A stretch of 64,000 nucleotides of DNA from a virus: IMG/VR virus record IMGVR_UViG_3300032675_000001, positions 1 to 64,000 of that record; one strand, 5' to 3'. A program made the translations under genes and the position numbers. Of this stretch, positions 1,171 to 45,700 are shown piece after piece (position 1 is the stretch's first letter; each line of letters opens with the position of its first letter). The notes beneath the pieces were generated by a model. The model worked only from the letters and a program-made list of their open reading frames with translations. It had not been told where the DNA came from and did not search any database.

Positions 1171-3504
1171 TTACTTTCTAATACCAGCTAACTTTGCCCA
1201 ATCACTAGCTGACTCATTGATATCTTTAGTGTTTAGGTGTGAGTGCATACGATCATCTTGACCAGCAACCACTGGAATAGTAGTTTGACCAGTTGACTTA
1301 GGTTTGTTCAATCCGCCTGAGATTACCTTAGTCATGAACTCAATGTCTGCTTCCCAATCTTCATCATTGTTTCTGCGAGCATTATTGGCCCATTCGTCTA
1401 GCTTGTTATCTGGCTTATTATCAAACGGATTGCCATTGTTCTTCATCTTGTCTTTGATTTCTTGTTGATGATAACCATTTACACCTTCTTCTAGATCATC
1501 TTCTTCATCTAGTTCTTTGCTGGTGTCATACCATTGTTTACCATAGTCTGGCTCATCTTCTTCATCTTCGCCATCTTCGTCGTAGTATGGGCCGCTCTTT
1601 TTGCGCTTGAAATGCTCGTCCCAAGCTTTTTGAGTATCTGGATGAACTGCTTCATCTACCTCTTCATTTTCTTGTGGACCGTTTTCTTCTTTCTGTGAAG
1701 CGTCATAACCGGCTGCTGCATTATTTGCTGCACTGTTGCCCTTTGTAGCATTCTGTGAGTTTGCTGCACCATTGTCTGAAGGGTTCTGTGGCTGTGCAGG
1801 AGATTGTCCTTGCTGTGGTTCTCCCTCATCTTCTGCCATTTCATATGACATCTGATCTTCTGACTCAACTTCGTCAAGCTTGCCTTCATCACATTCACAT
1901 TCAGATTCTGGCATACCGCAGTTTTCACATTCTGCTTCTTCACCTTCGCCAGCATCATCACCATCATGTTGAATACCAGATAGCTTCTTCATCAAACCAA
2001 GCATACCGTCATTGTCATCTACAACTTCAATATCGCCCGGTGTGTTTACTTCACTTGAAGGAGCTTGAATGCTGAAACCTCTTGGTTCATCACTAAGTTC
2101 TTCGTGACCACCTTCTCCACCGAAAATGCCCAAACCAGCTTGACGAACTAGAGCAAGAACTTGGTCTGCTTCTGCGTCAGTGGCGCTGATGTTTACAGAA
2201 TCGGGTGCGCCCTGCTGTCCCTTGGAAACAGAAACAGTTAATCCCTCAGTAAGTGACTTCTTTGAAGACTTTTTACTTTCGTTAATTTGCTTACCTTCAT
2301 TGATGAGGTTTTCAAGTTCACGATCCCATGCTTCAAACGCGAAATCCTCTTCGCCAAGATGTGAATCATAATGAGAAGTATCAGTAAATGATTTTCCGCC
2401 CACTGTGAACTTGCCACCGTGTGGTGTTCTTGCGAGGCCAGCAGTGAAAGCATTACCTTCATCCATCTCACCAGTATAAGGATCACGTGCAGCTTGATCT
2501 GCCATGCCGTGTGTAGTTGCTGGCATGTGAGGAGTTGCCATACCATAGCATTCGTCCATCATACCATAGCATTCATCAAGACCTTCTTTATAACCTTCAT
2601 GATATGCTCTGCATTCTTCCATGTCTTCATAGTTCTTACCGGCATAAGAGTGGCCTTTAAGTCCATGTGATTTACCCTCAAGACGGGCTGCTCTGATACG
2701 GTTACTCATATTTTCCTTCACTGCCTTTTTCTTATCTGCTGCGGCCTTTTTCATTGATTCTTTCTTGTCGCCGTCTTTGTCTAAATCTAGGAAGTCTGGC
2801 TTAGCTTTTTTAGCTTCAAGAGTAGTTCTACTTCTACCTGCTCCTAATGCTGCACCATAAGTATCAACTCCTGATGCTGATGGAATATCGCCTTCTTTGA
2901 CACCCTTCTTCCAGGCGCCCTTTGCACGAATAGCAAAGTTAAGTTCCTGCTGCTTAGTATATTCAGGTGAACCCTTTTTGTGAGGACCTGACTTGTGAAG
3001 TGCTGCAAGTTGCTTTTCCAACTCAGCCTTGGTTTTACCTTTGAACATTCCCTTCTTAGAAGGATTCAATTCAGTGTCTCCGCCCCACTTTTCGTCAAGC
3101 TCTTCTTCTTGGACAGCCTGAGTTGAACTTGTCTGCATAGTTGCACCGCCCTGCTGTGCTTGGTTGCCCTGTTGCTTTTGTTGTCCCTGCATTGGCTGCT
3201 GTTGAGTCATGACAACCTGAACATCTTGTGGATCAAGATTTGAAAGCATTTTTGAAACTGCTGGATTTTGACTAGTTACAACACCCATTCCTGCTTTTTT
3301 ATTTGTTGGGTCTAGAACTGGAAGTGGTTTTTGTCCCGGAGCCATTGCTTCATCCAACTGTCTGAACATATCTTTCAAAGACATATTCTTTGGTTCAACC
3401 TTTACTGGCTGAGCAGGAGCAGATTCCTTGAGAATCTTTTTCTTAGGTGGGGCTTTTGGAGCAGAAGCTTCTAACTGGCTCATCTTTTTCAACAAGTCTT
3501 TCAT
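1171..3504 (-). CDS. large low-complexity virion-associated protein
   Basis: 777 residues, not recognised as a named T4 protein. It has a Lys/Pro/Ala-rich N-terminus, a Gln-rich stretch near residues 100-130, a Met/Tyr/Glu/Cys-rich stretch near 265-330 (repeats such as DECYGMMDECYGM) and a very acidic region. A short C-terminal block ends in WAKLAGIRK, a motif similar to the RLAGI and RNAGI motifs in the proteins at 59161 and 60406. It follows the 3508-4134 gene by 3 bp and ends at a terminator. Acidic, low-complexity composition and position among capsid/tail genes suggest a head-internal or scaffold-like protein; this is inference. Confidence 0.6.
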   Translation of the reverse strand: MKDLLKKMSQLEASAPKAPPKKKILKESAPAQPVKVEPKNMSLKDMFRQLDEAMAPGQKPLPVLDPTNKKAGMGVVTSQNPAVSKMLSNLDPQDVQVVMTQQQPMQGQQKQQGNQAQQGGATMQTSSTQAVQEEELDEKWGGDTELNPSKKGMFKGKTKAELEKQLAALHKSGPHKKGSPEYTKQQELNFAIRAKGAWKKGVKEGDIPSASGVDTYGAALGAGRSRTTLEAKKAKPDFLDLDKDGDKKESMKKAAADKKKAVKENMSNRIRAARLEGKSHGLKGHSYAGKNYEDMEECRAYHEGYKEGLDECYGMMDECYGMATPHMPATTHGMADQAARDPYTGEMDEGNAFTAGLARTPHGGKFTVGGKSFTDTSHYDSHLGEEDFAFEAWDRELENLINEGKQINESKKSSKKSLTEGLTVSVSKGQQGAPDSVNISATDAEADQVLALVRQAGLGIFGGEGGHEELSDEPRGFSIQAPSSEVNTPGDIEVVDDNDGMLGLMKKLSGIQHDGDDAGEGEEAECENCGMPESECECDEGKLDEVESEDQMSYEMAEDEGEPQQGQSPAQPQNPSDNGAANSQNATKGNSAANNAAAGYDASQKEENGPQENEEVDEAVHPDTQKAWDEHFKRKKSGPYYDEDGEDEEDEPDYGKQWYDTSKELDEEDDLEEGVNGYHQQEIKDKMKNNGNPFDNKPDNKLDEWANNARRNNDEDWEADIEFMTKVISGGLNKPKSTGQTTIPVVAGQDDRMHSHLNTKDINESASDWAKLAGIRK

Positions 3505-3507
3505 GTC

Positions 3508-4134
3508 TTATCCTTTACTTGCGCCAGTTTGTGGCTTTGCTGGTCTGGTGATGGTTGACATCGGGCTGTGAATGCCACGTGGGTCATTATCTAAATATGG
3601 CTTGAATGGATCAAACGCATCCGGAGTTCTCTTGCCATCAAATGTGTATTGAATTCTATCATCTTTGGATTGATCTTTGATGCTTTCAAGATATGAATCG
3701 CCATATGCTTTAGATGCAGCTTTCGCACCCTTTTCTTCTTCCATTTCTTCATGTGTAAGAACAGGGTTATGTCTCATCTGATTGGCATATTCATCCATTT
3801 CATCATTGATACTGTCATCATATGATGTTTTGACAACACGAACAAGATTCACGTTATACCCAAGTAACTGTGCAATCTGTTGGATCATTGGTTCAGTAGC
3901 AGGATACCTAAAGACAGCCTTGATGATAGTTACTGACTCGTTTTCCAAATTAGGAAAACCGTATGGGTCTTTCTGAATTGGAGTTGATTTTGGTTCAGAG
4001 ATTTCAACAGGATCAAACTTCTTCAAGTTGAAACGAAACATGTCAAGAAAGTTCTTATCAACGTTCCCTGCGATCTTGATAGTGTATGCATAGGTGCGGA
4101 CACTTTCTGCGATGAAATGTTTTAGGCTTTTCAT
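3508..4134 (-). CDS. virion protein with capsid-targeting-like N-terminus
   Basis: 208 residues. The start MKSLKHFIAES resembles the T4 internal-protein capsid targeting sequence (MKTYQEFIAE), which is cut by prohead protease gp21 after (I/L)-x-E. Residues 15-100 look like a compact alpha/beta domain; the remainder is polar with many Asp/Lys. A late promoter motif lies at 4162-4169. No named family recognised. It could be packaged in the head or be a structural protein. Confidence 0.6.
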   Translation of the reverse strand: MKSLKHFIAESVRTYAYTIKIAGNVDKNFLDMFRFNLKKFDPVEISEPKSTPIQKDPYGFPNLENESVTIIKAVFRYPATEPMIQQIAQLLGYNVNLVRVVKTSYDDSINDEMDEYANQMRHNPVLTHEEMEEEKGAKAASKAYGDSYLESIKDQSKDDRIQYTFDGKRTPDAFDPFKPYLDNDPRGIHSPMSTITRPAKPQTGASKG

Positions 4135-4161
4135 AGTAATCCTTGCAATAGCTTTATATTA

Positions 4162-4169
4162 TATTTATC
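4162..4169 (-). promoter_or_regulatory. T4-like late promoter motif GATAAATA
   Basis: GATAAATA on minus, 27 bp upstream of the 4134 start. It overlaps the stop of the gene at 4168-4650. The leader contains AAGGA as a possible ribosome binding site. Confidence 0.6.
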
Positions 4170-4650
4170 ATTGATCTGTATTTTTGTTGTTCAACATTTT
4201 GAGCAACTCATTGCGATCAAACGATTGTCCTTCACCGATGGGCTTAGTCTGTATCTCTTCGCTTTTAGCTTGCATTTTTTGATCAAGTTGAGCCTTTTTC
4301 AGTTGCATATCAAGCATTTTGAGTTTTTTGTTGATCTTTGCCGTTTTGGCAGTAATAGCATGACCAAGGAACCCGCTTGCTGCACTGAATATGTCTGCGC
4401 TGAATCTGGAATCAACTTGCATACCTAAATCTACTAGGTCTTTGTAGCTGGCAGTAGCTAGATCAGCCAATTCGTCCATCTCTTCGTCGGCTGCTTCCAG
4501 CCCTTTTACTTGAGGTAGCGCATTGTCAATCTTTTCCAGATTGCTTACTGCTTCTTGTGTTATTTCTCTTGCGTGTTCAAAGATTGGCTGAGTAAGATCA
4601 TCATCTTCGCTCGTTGCCAACTCAAACAGTTCTTCTAGCTTTTTATTCAT
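4168..4650 (-). CDS. probable terminase small subunit (gp16-like)
   Basis: 160 residues, alpha-helical. The layout matches T4-type small terminases: an acidic N-terminal part (residues 1-30), a central helical pair (residues 60-120, with SYKDLVDLGM and IFSAASGFLGHAITA) and a Lys-rich coiled-coil (residues 123-150), then a polar tail. In T4 the small subunit recognises concatemer DNA and stimulates gp17 ATPase. Length matches T4 gp16 (164 aa). It is next to gp4 and the tail genes, away from gp17 at 57.6 kb. The assignment rests on helix pattern and length, not a diagnostic motif. Confidence 0.5.
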   Translation of the reverse strand: MNKKLEELFELATSEDDDLTQPIFEHAREITQEAVSNLEKIDNALPQVKGLEAADEEMDELADLATASYKDLVDLGMQVDSRFSADIFSAASGFLGHAITAKTAKINKKLKMLDMQLKKAQLDQKMQAKSEEIQTKPIGEGQSFDRNELLKMLNNKNTDQ

Positions 4651-4655
4651 GTAAG

Positions 4656-4663
4656 TATTTAGT
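4656..4663 (-). promoter_or_regulatory. late promoter variant ACTAAATA, leaderless geometry
   Basis: ACTAAATA on minus, ending exactly 5 nt before the ATG at 4650. By T4 late-promoter geometry, transcription would start at the A of the ATG. There is no Shine-Dalgarno sequence. Confidence 0.5.
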
Positions 4664-5097
4664 TACTTGCGTCCATTATAGAACAAATCATCTTCAGTAA
4701 TGACACGAAAAGTCAATCCCTGAGCCTTACAATAAGCATTTGCTGCCGCCCACTTGGCATGGTTTATAGCAACAGTCATTCTGTCCTTTGCGCTTGCGGT
4801 CTTACTCTCAATGATGCTTTGTTTCTTCGGCTTGATTTCAACAACTTCAGCAAGGGTTTTGCCGTGTTTGTTCTTATACACAACGAAGAAATCAGGAATG
4901 TAGTTTGTTGGTTTGCCAGTAAACGGATGGCGATATTTAATAGCCATTGATTCACTTGCCCAATGTAACACGTTATCATTGTTGTCACAAAAGGTCATGA
5001 ATGTGAGTTCCCAGCCAGAACGATATCTAGGCTGGTGCTTTCCTATATACTTTTGTGGATTTTTTGGGGTATAAAGACCTTGTGCCCACTTAGCCAT
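4663..5097 (-). CDS. 4: head completion nuclease gp4-like protein
   Basis: 144 residues (T4 gp4 is about 150). The PD-(D/E)XK nuclease signature is visible: YRSGWE at residues 25-30, then IPDFFV and VVEIKPKK in the central half, so E, D and E-x-K are in order. In T4, gp4 acts with gp50 on packaged heads before tail joining. N-terminal WAQGLYTPKNPQKYIGK is also typical. The start MAKWAQG overlaps no neighbour; the next gene is 1 bp away. The homing endonuclease at 42759-43673 has the same YRSxWE...DF...VEVKP order, so the two nuclease domains look related. Confidence 0.85.
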   Translation of the reverse strand: MAKWAQGLYTPKNPQKYIGKHQPRYRSGWELTFMTFCDNNDNVLHWASESMAIKYRHPFTGKPTNYIPDFFVVYKNKHGKTLAEVVEIKPKKQSIIESKTASAKDRMTVAINHAKWAAANAYCKAQGLTFRVITEDDLFYNGRK

Positions 5098-5098
5098 A

Positions 5099-5452
5099 TT
5101 ACTGCACTACGTTACGCTGCACGGCCTGATTTGGAGTAGGAATACTTCCAGTCCCATATAGTGCTACTTTAGACTTAAATGTGTTTAAATAATAGCATAT
5201 TACACTATTCATCTGTAATGTGTTGTTTGATCCTTTTATGATTTGAAGAAGTTCAATAACACTAGTGCCACTTTGCTGAGCAATATTAAACAGTATTGCA
5301 GTAAAGTTATTTGCTATAGTTCTATTATTTGATGTTCCATAGAAGTATGAGTAGACGAGATCATAATCAACAGCATTTACAACACTAGAGTTATTGTAAA
5401 AACTATCATATATTAATACGGTTTGATCGGGGTTTACAGTAATAGTTGCCAT
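5099..5452 (-). CDS. small virion-associated protein, unknown
   Basis: 117 residues from the chosen start MATITVNPDQ. A longer frame to 5509 exists, but its first 19 codons lie in the 3' end of the upstream gene and have no ribosome binding site. A GATAAATA motif ends 5 nt before the chosen ATG, which supports a leaderless start there. The protein is beta/alpha with an Asn-rich C-terminal half; no family recognised. It lies between gp4 and tail proteins. Confidence 0.6.
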   Translation of the reverse strand: MATITVNPDQTVLIYDSFYNNSSVVNAVDYDLVYSYFYGTSNNRTIANNFTAILFNIAQQSGTSVIELLQIIKGSNNTLQMNSVICYYLNTFKSKVALYGTGSIPTPNQAVQRNVVQ

Positions 5453-39872: not shown

Positions 39873-40571
39873 CTATTTTGGTTTCTGTTTGCACTTATCA
39901 CCATGATACTTACTGAAGTTTGGCTTGCCTACCATTTTATCACAGTAAATACAAGTTACTCGGATTGTATTTGGGTTCGGGATATTACGAGCAATGCGGG
40001 TAGCTTTTTGTTTTTGTATACTCTCGTCTGTGCGTTTATCGGTCCCGTTCTGTCTTCTAGTATCCCATCGTTTTGCGTTGCTTTCAGGCGTGTTTGGATT
40101 CATAGTTCCGTTACGTTTTCTAGATTCAAGCTGTTTGACAACCCGTTCTGGTGTTTGGGTATTAATGGTTCCATTCTTCCGGCGAGATTTTATTAAACTG
40201 GCAGTATGTTCCGGTGTCCTATCGTATGATCCGTTTTCTTTTCTAATAGTCACTGCCTTTTTGATTGTCTCTTCCGTGTGTTCTATGCCTTCGCCTGATT
40301 CTGGAATTAGATTAGCCCATGTCTTGTGTCCGAATTCGTCCCGTTCATACACTACATTCCATAACTCACTGTAGTATAATCCCCAGTGACGAAGTTCATC
40401 ATTAGTCTGACATTCCTTGAGTATTTCCGTAGTAACATCATATCCGTGTTTTCTAAGGTGCGGTTTCCATAGGTCACCTGACCCTTTGTATTTGTAGGGG
40501 TCTTGCGAGGTTTTTCCAAGGTATTTAAACCCTGTTTTGTTATGGGTCTTCTTATACAAATAAATAGTCAT
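39873..40571 (-). CDS. GIY-YIG homing endonuclease with tandem repeats and zinc finger
   Basis: 232 residues. The GIY-YIG domain covers residues 1-95: YLYKKTHNKTGFKYLGKT (Y-L-Y...Y-L-G), GSGDLWKPHLRKHGYDV, a Glu near residue 90. Four basic repeats follow (RRKNGTINTQTPE, RKRNGTMNPNTPE, RRQNGTDKRTDE). The C-terminal finger is CIYCDKMVGKPNFSKYHGDKC, like those of the HNH genes here. Unlike the other four leader-bearing genes it is on minus. Leader hairpin at 40598-40627. Confidence 0.87.
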   Translation of the reverse strand: MTIYLYKKTHNKTGFKYLGKTSQDPYKYKGSGDLWKPHLRKHGYDVTTEILKECQTNDELRHWGLYYSELWNVVYERDEFGHKTWANLIPESGEGIEHTEETIKKAVTIRKENGSYDRTPEHTASLIKSRRKNGTINTQTPERVVKQLESRKRNGTMNPNTPESNAKRWDTRRQNGTDKRTDESIQKQKATRIARNIPNPNTIRVTCIYCDKMVGKPNFSKYHGDKCKQKPK

Positions 40572-41401: not shown

Positions 41402-41905
41402 TTAAAAAGCCAACGAATAATCTACTACTTCACAGTTACGGCTGATTTCTTTGACGAAATAAACGCATCTTGGTTTTTCTCCGTCATCAATAGGCACACA
41501 TAAAAACTGCCCATTACGAAGTCTTGGTGCGAACCAAGTTACATCTGGATATATGTCTAATATTTCAATAGGTAAGAATGAAGGCGAGAACGATGTTAAT
41601 GGATTAAACTCAAATGCATGAAACCCTCTATCGTTTAAGCTAGAAAGGGGCAGAGTCTCCAAATCGCCATGTTCCTGTTCTCCGATTAGCACTTGCCAAT
41701 CAACAGGCATCTTGATCGTTTTATCAGCAATCTTTAGTACGAGTGCTGGAGAGTTAAATGATTCCAGAAAGATCAATGGTATGAAATGATAATCAACGTT
41801 AGATGGTGTTGAGTTGTCAAGTATTGCGAAACGCATATCATCTATTTCTTCTGGAAGCTGCTCAAGATTGAAGAATGTGTTTTCTTCTAATGTTAATATT
41901 CTCAT
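41402..41905 (-). CDS. phage protein, unknown
   Basis: 167 residues, mixed alpha/beta with many hydrophobic turns (FIPLIFLESFNSPALVLKIA, SFSPSFLPIEILDIYPDVTW, RCVYFVKEISRN). No family recognised. Strong early promoter with leaderless geometry, so early expression is likely. First gene of the operon reading to 40.7 kb. Confidence 0.6.
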   Translation of the reverse strand: MRILTLEENTFFNLEQLPEEIDDMRFAILDNSTPSNVDYHFIPLIFLESFNSPALVLKIADKTIKMPVDWQVLIGEQEHGDLETLPLSSLNDRGFHAFEFNPLTSFSPSFLPIEILDIYPDVTWFAPRLRNGQFLCVPIDDGEKPRCVYFVKEISRNCEVVDYSLAF

Positions 41906-41911
41906 GATGTT

Positions 41912-41940
41912 ATTGTATCAAATATTGTGTTGTATGTCAA
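41912..41940 (-). promoter_or_regulatory. early promoter TTGACA-17-TACAAT, leaderless geometry
   Basis: TTGACA (41935-41940), 17 bp, TACAAT (41912-41917), 6 nt, ATG at 41905. Confidence 0.8.
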
Positions 41941-41944
41941 CATG

Positions 41945-42781
41945 TTAGTAGTCCAACTTCTTTATTGTAAATGGATACTGTGCTTCCTTATAAAAAGCCT
42001 TACGTTGCGTTAGGTGTCTCTTTGCAAACTTGCAGGTACTTGTTAGGTCCCAAATCTGCACAAAATCCTTGTCTTCCGCTTTTCTTACACCACGCCCAAT
42101 GCTCTGAATAACACGAACAAACGACTTACCAGGTTCAATAAGTACCAAGTTAAAGATACGAGGAATATTGATACCGACAGCCGCAACGCCATACGTGGCG
42201 ACAATAATCTTGTCATCACTCGTGGCCACTTCATCGTATTCTTCCTTTCTTTCTGTTAGTTTAGTGTTTCCGTTGACAAACACCGCGTTGTCCAATCGGC
42301 TCACTAACTCTTTTCCTGCATTCACACGGTCTACTAGGACCAACGTGTTGCCAGTTTTATTGATTTCTTTGATTAGAGAAGCCATCTTATCTAATCGCTT
42401 TTCATCTTCTAAGAGATGTTTGAGTTCAGCCTGATAGTTGGAAAACTCCTTGTTATCTTTCATCTGAATGATGTTTACGTGGCAGTTAGCCAGAACTCCC
42501 TTATCCTGTAGTTCTTTTGCGCCAAGCTTTCCGACAACTGGACCAAGAGATACTAACAGTGATACTTGATCCATCAAATCCTTTGGAATCGTCCCTGTCA
42601 ATCCCCAACGAATAGGTATGTCAGAAAACACTCCTGTTAGCATAGTCTTAAGTACATCGGCCTTTGCCATGTGGCAGTTGGAAACTACTGCTCCATCAAC
42701 TATGTAATTATGATCATTTTCAATATGGAGATTGAACACTTCGTCGGGTTTATCAATTTCAGTTTTTCTTATTAGCTTCAT
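41945..42781 (-). CDS. uvsW: UvsW helicase C-terminal half preceded by split-intein C-fragment
   Basis: 278 residues: a 35-residue intein C-fragment, then 243 residues of helicase. The C-extein begins CHMAKADVLKTM, completing the DExH box (VDE + CH). Then RWGLTGTIPK (motif III), VDRVNAGKELV (IV), ATYGVAAVGINIPR (V) and QSIGRGVRK (VI). UvsW unwinds branched DNA and R-loops in recombination-dependent replication. Its ATG lies 23 nt inside the endonuclease gene, with AAGGAAG upstream, so it is translationally coupled. Needs trans-splicing with the 43701-44717 product for activity. Confidence 0.9.
   Translation of the reverse strand: MKLIRKTEIDKPDEVFNLHIENDHNYIVDGAVVSNCHMAKADVLKTMLTGVFSDIPIRWGLTGTIPKDLMDQVSLLVSLGPVVGKLGAKELQDKGVLANCHVNIIQMKDNKEFSNYQAELKHLLEDEKRLDKMASLIKEINKTGNTLVLVDRVNAGKELVSRLDNAVFVNGNTKLTERKEEYDEVATSDDKIIVATYGVAAVGINIPRIFNLVLIEPGKSFVRVIQSIGRGVRKAEDKDFVQIWDLTSTCKFAKRHLTQRKAFYKEAQYPFTIKKLDY
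42677..42781 (-). other. split intein C-fragment (IntC, 35 aa)
   Basis: MKLIRKTEID...VFNLHIENDHNYIVDGAVVSN: a VFNLHIENDHNYIV block (C-terminal splicing block) with the terminal Asn, followed by Cys +1 of the extein (CHM). The fragment length is typical of natural split-intein C-parts. Confidence 0.9.
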
Positions 42782-43673
42782 ATAACTTCCTTATTTTTGT
42801 TGCGGTTTTTTCATCGAATCCGGAGAGGTCAGTGGGACAGCCATTAGTCAATAGCCATTCCTGTGTCACGATAATGACTCTAAAACCATTTTGGTTAGCC
42901 CACTCGTTGAGTGCAACTATTTTTGCGTCAAATATCTCACCTTTACATAACTCCGCCGGTTTCACTTCCGCTACCTGTTTGGTTTCATAGTCAACAAAAT
43001 CAGCTATGTATATTTTTCGATTACCGTTGATAGTGTATTCCAATCTCAACGTTTCATATTCTGCATCCGGATACATATACTGAAACAACGCTTCCCAGCT
43101 TGATCTATATTTCTTTCCGTTAAATTCTGCTGCCCAATGCGTATTTCGATTGTTAGAATTTGGGGTAAAGTCTCCGGCTAATATTTTAGCTTTCATCACA
43201 TCTGACCGGTGTTGTTTATCTTGGTCAGACATTTTTACACCATGCATTCCGTTTGCTTCCCCGCTATTTGCTCGGGAGGCGATGCGGCTATCGGTGTGTT
43301 TAGTCAACCCCTTTGCCCATGAAGTTTGGAGTCCGGTCTTTCCTTTATTCCATGGCACTCCTGTATTTAAATTGCGGCTACTAAGTTCAGGATGTAGTTT
43401 ATGGACTGCTTCACCACCAATTGCGGCAAGCTTGGCCTTTATTTCCCGATCGGTTATCAATCCAGCGAGAAGCAAATCCATGTTCTTCACCCAAAGATCA
43501 GTCTTGATATTCATCACTCTCTTTTTGAACTTGCCAAACTCGGGCTGTATTAATATCTCGCCAGTTGATAATTCTAATGTTGCTTTTCCAAAATCAACTA
43601 CCCTTACCCGTTGGTCATATGTTTCTAGTCGTCCATTTAATCGGACTTTCCATTGTTCATATGTAATTTTCAT
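42759..43673 (-). CDS. PD-(D/E)XK homing endonuclease inside fractured UvsW gene
   Basis: 304 residues from MKITYEQWKV (AGGAG 5 nt upstream; an ATG 7 codons earlier sits only 3 nt after CATAAATA). N-terminal half: VKNMDLLLAGLITDREIKAK, then NUMOD-type NTGVPWNKGKTG and EANGMHGVKMSDQ. C-terminal nuclease domain: YRSSWEALFQYM, IYIADFVDYE, VAEVKPAE, then EWANQNGFRVIIVTQEW. The E...D...E-x-K order matches gp4-like nucleases. It lies between the two halves of the split intein and likely cleaves intein-free uvsW. Confidence 0.85.
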   Translation of the reverse strand: MKITYEQWKVRLNGRLETYDQRVRVVDFGKATLELSTGEILIQPEFGKFKKRVMNIKTDLWVKNMDLLLAGLITDREIKAKLAAIGGEAVHKLHPELSSRNLNTGVPWNKGKTGLQTSWAKGLTKHTDSRIASRANSGEANGMHGVKMSDQDKQHRSDVMKAKILAGDFTPNSNNRNTHWAAEFNGKKYRSSWEALFQYMYPDAEYETLRLEYTINGNRKIYIADFVDYETKQVAEVKPAELCKGEIFDAKIVALNEWANQNGFRVIIVTQEWLLTNGCPTDLSGFDEKTATKIRKLYEANKKN

Positions 43674-43700
43674 AAATACTCCTGCCTTAGCCATATGTAT

Positions 43701-44717
43701 TTATGTTTTGTTTACGATTTCGTGATTTTCAGTAAGTTCGTCTGCCCGACACCATCCTAGGTTTGTTAGAAACTTATGATTTCCGGTAACCCTAATTACA
43801 CTTCCATTATCAAATTCCATTTCATACATTTTTTCAGTGGAAGATATTGTAAGATTCCGGTGTTGTTTTACTACTGTATCTTCCTTAAAGATTCCGGACT
43901 GTTCGCAATAATTGATTATTTTATCTCCAACTTTAACGTCCTTGATTGGTAGATGCCCATTCGGGGTTAGCACTCTGGCTTCTCCATCAAAACATTCGTC
44001 AACCATCACACATACAACGTCTTCAAAAAAGAATTCGTCCATTTCTGGATCAGCATCTTCATCCTTAACCGATTTGAATAGGTTATTTAGAGATTGCCAT
44101 GTGCAAATGGTATGTGTCTTACCGTATTCTTTACGATCACCAAAGTAGACACCCACATCTAGTCCAAGATTGATGTAGTCTGCCTCTGTTTGCACCACCA
44201 GAGACTTGTTAGGGACGATTACAAGCGATCTACCATATCTTTCTATACATTGTGATAGTCCAGCAGTGATAAGCGTCTTACCGGCTCCTGTGGCAACTTC
44301 TTGCAATGCCTGTGGATTAGATAAAAAGGTGTTAATAATCTCAACCTGATAGTCTCGCAATAAGATTGGTTTTCCTTCTGCTGGATGACCCTTTGGCCAT
44401 AGTGTTTCAGCGAAGGTATCTTCTTTGATCAAATCAAATTCTAGGTCTTGACGGCTGCGATGATCTTCCAACTCAATATCATAATCATGATCTATCAAAT
44501 ATGGAATGATCTGATCTAACAGGTTGAGATATGTGCTTCCGGCTAGAGAGAAGTAACTTACTTTTCCGTTCCACCTACCAAGTCTTACGGCAGGTAAAAA
44601 TCTTGCACCTGGTTTTTCGTACTCAAACTTTTTTGTTAATGCTCTTCGGACATCTAGTTCAAGTCCTTCTATTTTTACATTAACTTCATCTTTGATTATT
44701 ATTTTTGCTTCTCTCAT
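43701..44717 (-). CDS. uvsW: UvsW helicase N-terminal half fused to split-intein N-fragment
   Basis: 338 residues: 241 residues of UvsW, then 97 residues of intein. Helicase Q-motif/dsDNA-binding region at 35-60, RDYQVEIINTFL (121-132), Walker A ATGAGKT (142-148), CTWQSLNN (Ic). It breaks at VCVMVDE (235-241), the first half of the DExH box. Joined product would be 484 aa (T4 UvsW about 500). The start overlaps the stop of the HARP-like gene (ATGA). Confidence 0.92.
   Translation of the reverse strand: MREAKIIIKDEVNVKIEGLELDVRRALTKKFEYEKPGARFLPAVRLGRWNGKVSYFSLAGSTYLNLLDQIIPYLIDHDYDIELEDHRSRQDLEFDLIKEDTFAETLWPKGHPAEGKPILLRDYQVEIINTFLSNPQALQEVATGAGKTLITAGLSQCIERYGRSLVIVPNKSLVVQTEADYINLGLDVGVYFGDRKEYGKTHTICTWQSLNNLFKSVKDEDADPEMDEFFFEDVVCVMVDECFDGEARVLTPNGHLPIKDVKVGDKIINYCEQSGIFKEDTVVKQHRNLTISSTEKMYEMEFDNGSVIRVTGNHKFLTNLGWCRADELTENHEIVNKT
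43704..43994 (-). other. split intein N-fragment (IntN, 97 aa)
   Basis: Starts with Cys1 (CFDGEARVLTPNGHLP), block A; IKDVKVGDKIIN continues it; block B is VTGNHKFLTNLGWCRADEL with the conserved His. Ends ENHEIVNKT and a stop codon, so the polypeptide is truncated where a contiguous intein would continue into an endonuclease domain. Confidence 0.9.
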
Positions 44718-45700
44718 TTTACCTCTATTGGACGTGAATCTTTGACGATGATCATCTTATCAATGCGCGTAACAGAAGGAGGATTATCATAAACGGATAC
44801 GCACATTTGCTGTTCATCATCACTTGTTGCTGTTCGGAAACCGTTGGAAATAGTTATATCGGCTTTAGTCATTGATTCCCTGATTTGTTTACCAAGCATA
44901 CCATGTGCAAGGCCCCTGCCAAACACTATTTTGCTGCAACCAAGCCCCGTGATCATAGATGCCAGTGTTTCTGCCTCAGCAGCCTCAACGTATGTCGTTT
45001 GCTCTGCAGCAAACTTTAGAAATGGATCATGGTCAACCAACACGGGATCAACCCTGATTCCAAGCTGACTAAGTTTATACAGCGTCATTGGCTCAAGATT
45101 TAGCTCCATGTCACCTATCACATCTGCAAGTACAGATGACATTGCGGCAATCATTAGTTTGCCATTGACCGATGTAAGTGTCGGATTCCAGACCTGAGCA
45201 TCATACTGCTTCAAGTCTTCCAGAATCTGGTTAATGTTTTCACAGAACTGGACCGTTGAAAAATGTTTGTACAGTTCGGTTACAGCAATTTTGAGTGCAG
45301 TTGTTCTAAACGGAGACGTATAAAGTTTACGTTCCTTGTTCCACTGAAAAGTGTTGCTGGGAATTTCCCTAAATTTGGTAATGAAAGTCTTGTTAAACGG
45401 AACACGAATAGTGATGTCATCATCTACGATGCTCACTACTGCTCCGGTATATTCTGGTGTGCTTTGAACAACCATAGACTTCCACGGAAGAGCAATGACT
45501 GTCTTCCCATCAATACCCTGCTTGGTCATCTGCTTATTATATTTAGTTACCAGACGATCAAACAAATCTGCCTGATTGGATGTAACTCTATTATCATTGT
45601 GAATCATCGTCTGCAAGTTTGCAAGAAACTTGTAGTCATATTGGCTTAGACTAATCTTCCCCTGCAGGAAAAAGTAGAGCAGTTGTTCTTTCGTTTCCAT
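44714..45700 (-). CDS. HARP-domain-like protein coupled to UvsW
   Basis: 328 residues. Residues 90-140 (DDDITIRVPFNKTFITKFRE, NTFQWNKERKLYTSPFR) resemble the HARP domain that precedes SNF2-type annealing helicases such as SMARCAL1. Helical and mixed regions follow (VEAAEAETLASMITGLGCSK). ATGA overlap with uvsW suggests a partner that directs the helicase to branched DNA; the assignment is by pattern only. Early promoter with leaderless geometry and a terminator just upstream. Confidence 0.55.
   Translation of the reverse strand: METKEQLLYFFLQGKISLSQYDYKFLANLQTMIHNDNRVTSNQADLFDRLVTKYNKQMTKQGIDGKTVIALPWKSMVVQSTPEYTGAVVSIVDDDITIRVPFNKTFITKFREIPSNTFQWNKERKLYTSPFRTTALKIAVTELYKHFSTVQFCENINQILEDLKQYDAQVWNPTLTSVNGKLMIAAMSSVLADVIGDMELNLEPMTLYKLSQLGIRVDPVLVDHDPFLKFAAEQTTYVEAAEAETLASMITGLGCSKIVFGRGLAHGMLGKQIRESMTKADITISNGFRTATSDDEQQMCVSVYDNPPSVTRIDKMIIVKDSRPIEVK

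Follow-up and report, generated by a model that had tools for sequence, protein, structure and literature searches.

We have analysed a stretch of viral DNA (hereafter the window) that comprises positions 1 to 64,000, 64,000 nucleotides (nt) in all, of IMG/VR virus record IMGVR_UViG_3300032675_000001. The whole record is 360,683 bases long, which by size makes the source a jumbo phage. At 41945-44717 the window holds a gene for the DNA-repair helicase UvsW. We are confident that a naturally split, class-1-type intein interrupts this uvsW gene within helicase motif II, that a homing-endonuclease gene separates the two intein halves, and that the resulting cassette homes. With a somewhat lower degree of belief, yet still as the better bet, we regard the uvsW split inteins as an actively homing family, which would turn DEVH alleles into DECH alleles through conversion tracts of tens of nucleotides, leave DECH scars, shed the endonuclease and pass from a split to a contiguous form.

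Anatomy of the interrupted uvsW gene

The elements of the locus are as follows, in the order of transcription.

43995..44717, minus strand: UvsW N-extein, 241 amino acids (aa), C-terminal ...VCVMVDE, the first half of helicase motif II
43701..43994, minus strand: intein N-fragment (IntN), 97 aa at 43994-43704 and a stop codon at 43703-43701, with Cys1, block A and block B VTGNHK
43697..43705, minus strand: conserved CATAAATAC, located at the IntN stop
42759..43673, minus strand: free-standing endonuclease gene, likely start ATG 43673, in an open reading frame (ORF) that opens at 43694
42677..42781, minus strand: intein C-fragment (IntC), 35 aa, block F with His and block G ...VVSN
41945..42676, minus strand: UvsW C-extein, 243 aa and a stop codon, first residue Cys+1 (CHMAKAD)

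IntN opens with CFDGEARVLTPNG and reads CFDGEARV...EIVNKT, and IntC has the sequence MKLIRKTEIDKPDEVFNLHIENDHNYIVDGAVVSN, followed by CHMAKAD... of the C-extein. The two exteins join without loss at DE/CH (the slash marks the splice junction), and the joined product of 241+243 = 484 aa aligns with T4 UvsW. Each of the three cistrons has its own ribosome-binding site and start codon, and the start of the IntC gene overlaps the end of the endonuclease gene by 23 nt in a different frame. The endonuclease ORF (43694-42759) encodes 311 aa; its eighth residue is the start in many homologues and AGGAG precedes the ATG at 43673, which is a likelier start than the opening of the ORF. It is evident that the original prediction, which had placed an N half ending in VMVDE, IntN with its stop, an endonuclease gene, IntC ending in Asn, and CHMAKAD in this order, was correct to the base, and the 484-aa product that it had foreseen follows from the two extein lengths. 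Its identification of the gene as uvsW is borne out as well. UvsW_N and ResIII in the N half and Helicase_C in the C half pass the Pfam gathering thresholds, both halves find their best PDB relative in T4 UvsW (1rif/2oca for the N half; 2oca, 2.4e-15, for the C half), and the DECH of 2oca overlies the extein junction. These results support the conclusion that the split gene encodes a UvsW-type helicase with UvsW_N and superfamily 2 (SF2) helicase domains, nearest to T4 UvsW. A single-sequence structure prediction of the UvsW N half with IntN reached a predicted local distance difference test (pLDDT) score of 37 and was disregarded.

Profile comparison likewise agrees with the split intein that had been predicted. 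IntN matches TIGR01445 intein_Nterm (4.6e-9) and IntC matches TIGR01443 intein_Cterm (1.7e-4), both above the curated cut-offs, and a profile built from IntN relatives matches solved inteins, including Spl DnaX, Npu DnaB, NrdJ-1 and gp41-1. Two scans of viral contigs yielded 130 and 114 IntN relatives; 143 loci with IntN after DE were fetched and parsed, 61 of which are non-redundant. Cys1 and VTGNHK are found in all 61 non-redundant loci. The downstream junction, read with a relaxed pattern that left the +1 residue free, is N/CH in 134 of the 134 loci where it was readable, the remaining 9 of the 143 being unread. The family thus has Cys1, the block B TxxH, the C-terminal Asn and one of Cys, Ser or Thr at +1, which supports its classification as a putative naturally split, class-1-type intein. 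Against bacterial and archaeal genomes, the IntN profile found remote inteins only, 28-37% identical across most of the fragment. Purifying selection is seen between the window and one family member, L014, with ratios of nonsynonymous to synonymous substitution (dN/dS) of 0.18 in IntN, 0.15 in the endonuclease and 0 in IntC.

The same three-gene layout and the same DE/CH site are found in S16-type Salmonella phages, including S16, and in Proteus phage PM2, with homologous IntN, endonuclease and IntC. These phages differ from the window in being T-even-like, in a UvsW that is about 26% identical, and in having a His as the penultimate intein residue. In the deposited annotations, S16 (gp114, gp114.1, gp115), the other S16-type phages and PM2 have a pair of helicase genes plus one hypothetical protein, the intein being unmentioned, and phrog_16259, phrog_9690 and phrog_22417 hold these fragments under no intein label. 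As S16 and PM2 are isolated carriers, splicing and homing are open to direct test. An artefact of sequencing or assembly, or an endonuclease ORF housed in a group I intron in place of an intein, would be a general possibility in any metagenome assembly, and nothing beyond that speaks for it. The layout recurs in isolated phage genomes and in contigs of many metagenomes, every cistron has separate translation signals, and Rfam covariance models found no intron or other RNA family at E <= 1 in 41500-45200; we give such an explanation practically no weight.

The conserved CATAAATAC is present in at least 34 of the 46 endonuclease-bearing loci, the background of ATAAATA being 0.24 per kb, and its offset from the IntN stop varies among family members. 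It resembles the -10 box of T4 late promoters and may act as promoter for the endonuclease gene. TATAAATA was considered as a phage-wide late promoter and rejected, as it is not enriched in the window (3 observed vs 3.5 expected).

Transfer of the cassette and the +1 residue

The intein and its flanking gene have diverged to very different extents, the insert being the younger of the two. Between the window and S16, the exteins share 25.5% identity and the intein shares 59.8%. Between the window and L014, the codon-aligned proportions of synonymous differences (pS) are 0.90 and 0.81 in the exteins, compared with 0.35 in IntN, 0.39 in the endonuclease and 0.29 in IntC; the N-exteins of this pair differ by an indel, so that an ungapped comparison is valid in the nearest bin only and the codon-aligned values are used. 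Among 1176 pairs of loci, 16 combine an extein pS above 0.6 with an intein pS below 0.4, and none shows the reverse pattern. An extein tree for which the +1 column was left out requires 17 changes in intein presence, 14 of which are forced by starred branches.

Recent phage pairs are more telling about the unit that moves: their inserts are 97-99.8% identical, and the flanking uvsW sequences are close to synonymous saturation. The 1312-nt inserts of L050 and L053 are 99.6% identical, and the two loci share a further 31 nt on the upstream side and 5 nt on the downstream side before they diverge. The corresponding flanks are 18 and 17 nt in L025/L031 (inserts 99.8% identical), 39 and 14 nt in L068/L074 (97.2%), 0 and 26 nt in L091/L312 (98.4%), and 30 and 23 nt in L083/L089, which have identical inteins and one member of which has the endonuclease deleted. 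Shared flanks in recent pairs thus span 0-39 nt, and the +1 codon lies within every tract. These comparisons show that the cassette moves between alleles as one piece, independently of the flanking DNA beyond the short flanks that go with it. The nuclease presumably starts the transfer events, given the conservation of the endonuclease and the known behavior of homing elements. When identity was plotted against distance from the junction and averaged over pairs of intein-bearing and intein-free alleles, no clear conversion tract was visible, probably because these pairs are too old.

We then consider the residue at +1. The insertion does lie within the DECH box, and the joined halves do read DECH, as the original prediction had stated; close intein-free relatives, however, read DEVH. 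Intein-free alleles at the same site, which the prediction had proposed to look for, are abundant: among 80 close uvsW relatives collected by extein similarity, 78 are intein-free (76 DEVH, 1 DEAH and 1 DETH), one bears the intein and one is unreadable. Intein-bearing alleles read DECH, and when the whole collection was searched with a DNA pattern encoding DECHMAK, only about 15 loci had a uvsW with DECH and no intein. On the extein tree, intein alleles, the window among them, repeatedly adjoin DEVH alleles. In 14 independent pairs, the +1 residue changed to Cys together with the intein in 9-11, and the opposite direction was never seen. The contrast between intein-bearing DECH alleles and their DEVH relatives can be explained by the shared flanks, which always include the +1 codon. 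Read in this way, the alignments suggest that the active-site cysteine comes with the element and appears not to be a native residue of the clade of the window.

It could be argued instead that the cysteine is not borne by the element, and that the intein is accepted only by alleles that are already DECH, DEVH alleles being immune. Intein-free DECH alleles do occur, and T-even phages are natively DECH. However, many invaded alleles, that of the window included, have DEVH alleles as their nearest intein-free relatives, recent transfers are bordered by identical sequence within which the +1 codon falls, and the intein-free DECH alleles mostly group with intein-bearing ones, as would be expected of scars left by loss. 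We therefore consider a pre-existing cysteine as the general rule unlikely, and a cysteine carried in with the cassette remains the preferred explanation.

A mechanism consistent with this anatomy would begin with three proteins, each produced from its own start site. IntN and IntC would associate, Cys1 and Cys+1 would take part in thioester exchange, and the terminal Asn would cyclize, so that splicing would release UvsW as a 484-aa protein whose motif II reads DECH. The free endonuclease would cut uninvaded uvsW alleles in co-infecting phages, and repair off the invaded copy would install IntN, the endonuclease gene and IntC along with flanking DNA of no more than a few tens of nucleotides. 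Conversion would also bring in the +1 Cys codon, by which a DEVH target would become a splicing-competent DECH allele. Where the endonuclease has been lost, the intein remains split or, in one lineage, has re-fused into a contiguous form. Near-identical cassettes in strongly diverged genes reveal both the reach of conversion and how an intein can gain entry to a site that lacks the required nucleophile.

The endonuclease, its loss and re-fusion

The gene between the halves had been predicted to encode an endonuclease, and this is what the family comparison indicates. NUMOD3 matches 17 of 28 family endonucleases (best 1.8e-9) and TnsA_N matches 21 of the 28 (best 6.1e-9); for the endonuclease of the window taken alone, both scores are below gathering. 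Five residues, E201, E214, D232, E243 and K245 in the numbering of the 311-aa ORF, are invariant in all 28. A predicted model (pLDDT 82.5) has TnsA as its closest solved fold (probability 0.93-0.96, E of about 0.06-0.1), and the I-TevI DNA-binding domain and I-Bth0305I rank lower. Near matches among predicted viral structures are a 'Nuclease associated modular domain 3' protein, the PM2 homolog and TnsA-N proteins, with weaker matches to head-completion nucleases. No match at E <= 1 was obtained when the endonuclease profile was searched against the PDB. A Vsr-like or I-Bth0305I (EDxHD) class was considered and rejected, as the fold matches to 3r3p (E 0.57) and 1vsr (E 1.7) are not significant. 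By its profile and fold matches, the protein is classified as a NUMOD3 plus TnsA-like PD-(D/E)XK endonuclease, with invariant residues of the PD-(D/E)XK and not the EDxHD kind. Its nuclease domain (42759-43694, minus strand) is also similar to phage head-completion proteins (phrog_218, 5.9e-12, for the phiR1-RT homolog; matches in BFVD), hinting at descent from a head-completion nuclease.

The cassette is found in several states. Among 51 loci with long exteins, the endonuclease is present in 36, absent from a still split intein in 8, and reduced to a fragment in 3; 3 others have a contiguous intein and 1 has a fusion of IntN with the endonuclease. In that natural fusion (L035, from 5001), IntN and the endonuclease form a single 419-aa ORF and IntC is separate. 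In the endonuclease-less inteins of L017, L020, L081 and L090, the final codons of the endonuclease persist in another frame. In L310 and, identically, in L311, L313, L314 and L315, a continuous ORF unites IntN and IntC in a single intein of 139 aa. The DNA that links them closely matches the 3' end of the endonuclease gene of the relative L312 and adjoins IntN at TCACGA; as this DNA is a scar of the endonuclease gene, the contiguous intein is derived from the split form. It is fairly likely that a deletion at the short repeat TCACGA fused IntN to IntC and left the end of the endonuclease gene recognizable out of frame. L322 and L347 also have contiguous inteins, with no clear endonuclease scar, and the derivation from a split form is drawn for the L310 lineage. 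The family thereby illustrates a split intein becoming contiguous again.

Several points weigh against a splicing and homing cassette in the window. Trans-splicing and DNA cleavage are predictions from sequence. The penultimate His, which is usual though not universal in class 1 inteins, is absent from the window and is found in only 3 of 58 family members, the residue being Ser in 41 (the window included), Ala in 13 and Thr in 1. The footprint of conversion is seen in relatives and not in the window, whose nearest known insert is 87% identical. Given the rare intein-free DECH alleles, the intein may in some cases have invaded an allele in which Cys was already present. One might then suppose that an endonuclease merely broke uvsW, and that the halves are non-covalently paired subunits beside dead intein leftovers. 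Besides the missing His, there is a reported precedent for genes in pieces, in which a homing endonuclease has divided a phage ribonucleotide reductase. Dead leftovers are nevertheless hard to reconcile with intein residues that never vary and are kept by purifying selection in hosts that have diverged strongly, with a split that falls within motif II, and with the occurrence at this site of a contiguous version of the intein in an open frame, which is sensible only if splicing works. We thus consider broken halves very improbable and favor a functional split intein.

Relation to known systems and further observations

This kind of gene is known from phages, as had been noted in the original prediction, and the uvsW version is a widespread family and not a single case. 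Fractured genes, in which a split intein surrounds a free-standing homing endonuclease, were reportedly described by Dassa et al. 2009 (doi 10.1093/nar/gkp095). The uvsW locus is like them in being a phage enzyme of DNA metabolism with a split intein and a free-standing endonuclease gene between the halves. That 2009 study is reportedly the source of gp41-1, NrdJ-1 and IMPDH-1, and its fractured-gene nucleases are said to be Vsr-like (EDxHD). The present case differs in its host gene, uvsW, and in its nuclease, which is TnsA-like PD-(D/E)XK with NUMOD3 and not Vsr-like. Our literature search returned no report of a uvsW gene with a split intein, the host-gene list of the 2009 study being unchecked; uvsW as a host and a non-Vsr nuclease type are probably new to fractured genes. 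The family also offers a large collection of naturally diversified split inteins with Cys1 and Cys+1, mostly without a penultimate His. Rewriting of the +1 residue, short conversion tracts and re-fusion are most likely the parts that would surprise a specialist, the principle of co-conversion being already known. For the haloarchaeal MCM intein, invaded alleles have Ser at +1 and uninvaded alleles have Pro, which was explained by co-conversion (PMC10643990). Invaded alleles carry the +1 nucleophile and uninvaded ones another residue in both systems. However, the MCM inteins are contiguous, LAGLIDADG-containing and archaeal, with few events, whereas uvsW has a phage split intein, Cys vs Val, and visible tracts.

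T4 SegE is a free-standing homing endonuclease at inh/uvsW that targets uvsW (PMC2988022). It resembles the present system in having uvsW as a homing target, and GIY-YIG genes lie near uvsW in the window and directly before uvsW in S16; it differs in that uvsW is left intact, with no link to an intein. The gene in the window, GIY-YIG-like, lies at 39873-40571 (minus strand), about 1.4 kb downstream of uvsW.

A related TnsA-like nuclease also lies between halves joined at DE/C in the terminase of Yersinia phage phiR1-RT (g166-g168), a system grouped here with AceL-TerL-type split inteins; the differences lie in the host gene, in a very short IntN of about 46 aa and in a C half that holds the bulk of the intein. 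The large terminase of phiR1-RT, split at DE/C by a short IntN and a long IntC, is at 2420-5269 of locus L006, and similar nucleases are found at the terminase genes of many T-even phages. A different SF2 helicase in Vibrio phage K391 (L004, 3093-5795) has a contiguous intein at DE/CH (QDE/CFPAG ... VVHN/CHHV), so that inteins may have settled repeatedly in motif II of SF2 helicases.

Split inteins with endonuclease genes are already known from NrdA. The genome from which the window is taken has a second fractured gene, nrdA, outside the window (L165, 202500-210500; pieces at 766-2475, 2509-3447 and 3444-4532). It is split after ...YQSNLC by an IntN, followed by an HNH-like endonuclease gene and an IntC gene (MLVHN/CEILLPT). 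In Streptococcus phage vB_SagM-GXN1 (L008, 2253-5214), a terminase-like gene is apparently in three pieces. One ORF opens with an IntC (VVSHN/CALMDEIEF) and closes with a second IntN (NS/CLVEDT) and an in-frame endonuclease-like tail, and the next ORF opens with a second IntC (VVHN/SKDISD), so that two trans-splicing events would be required.
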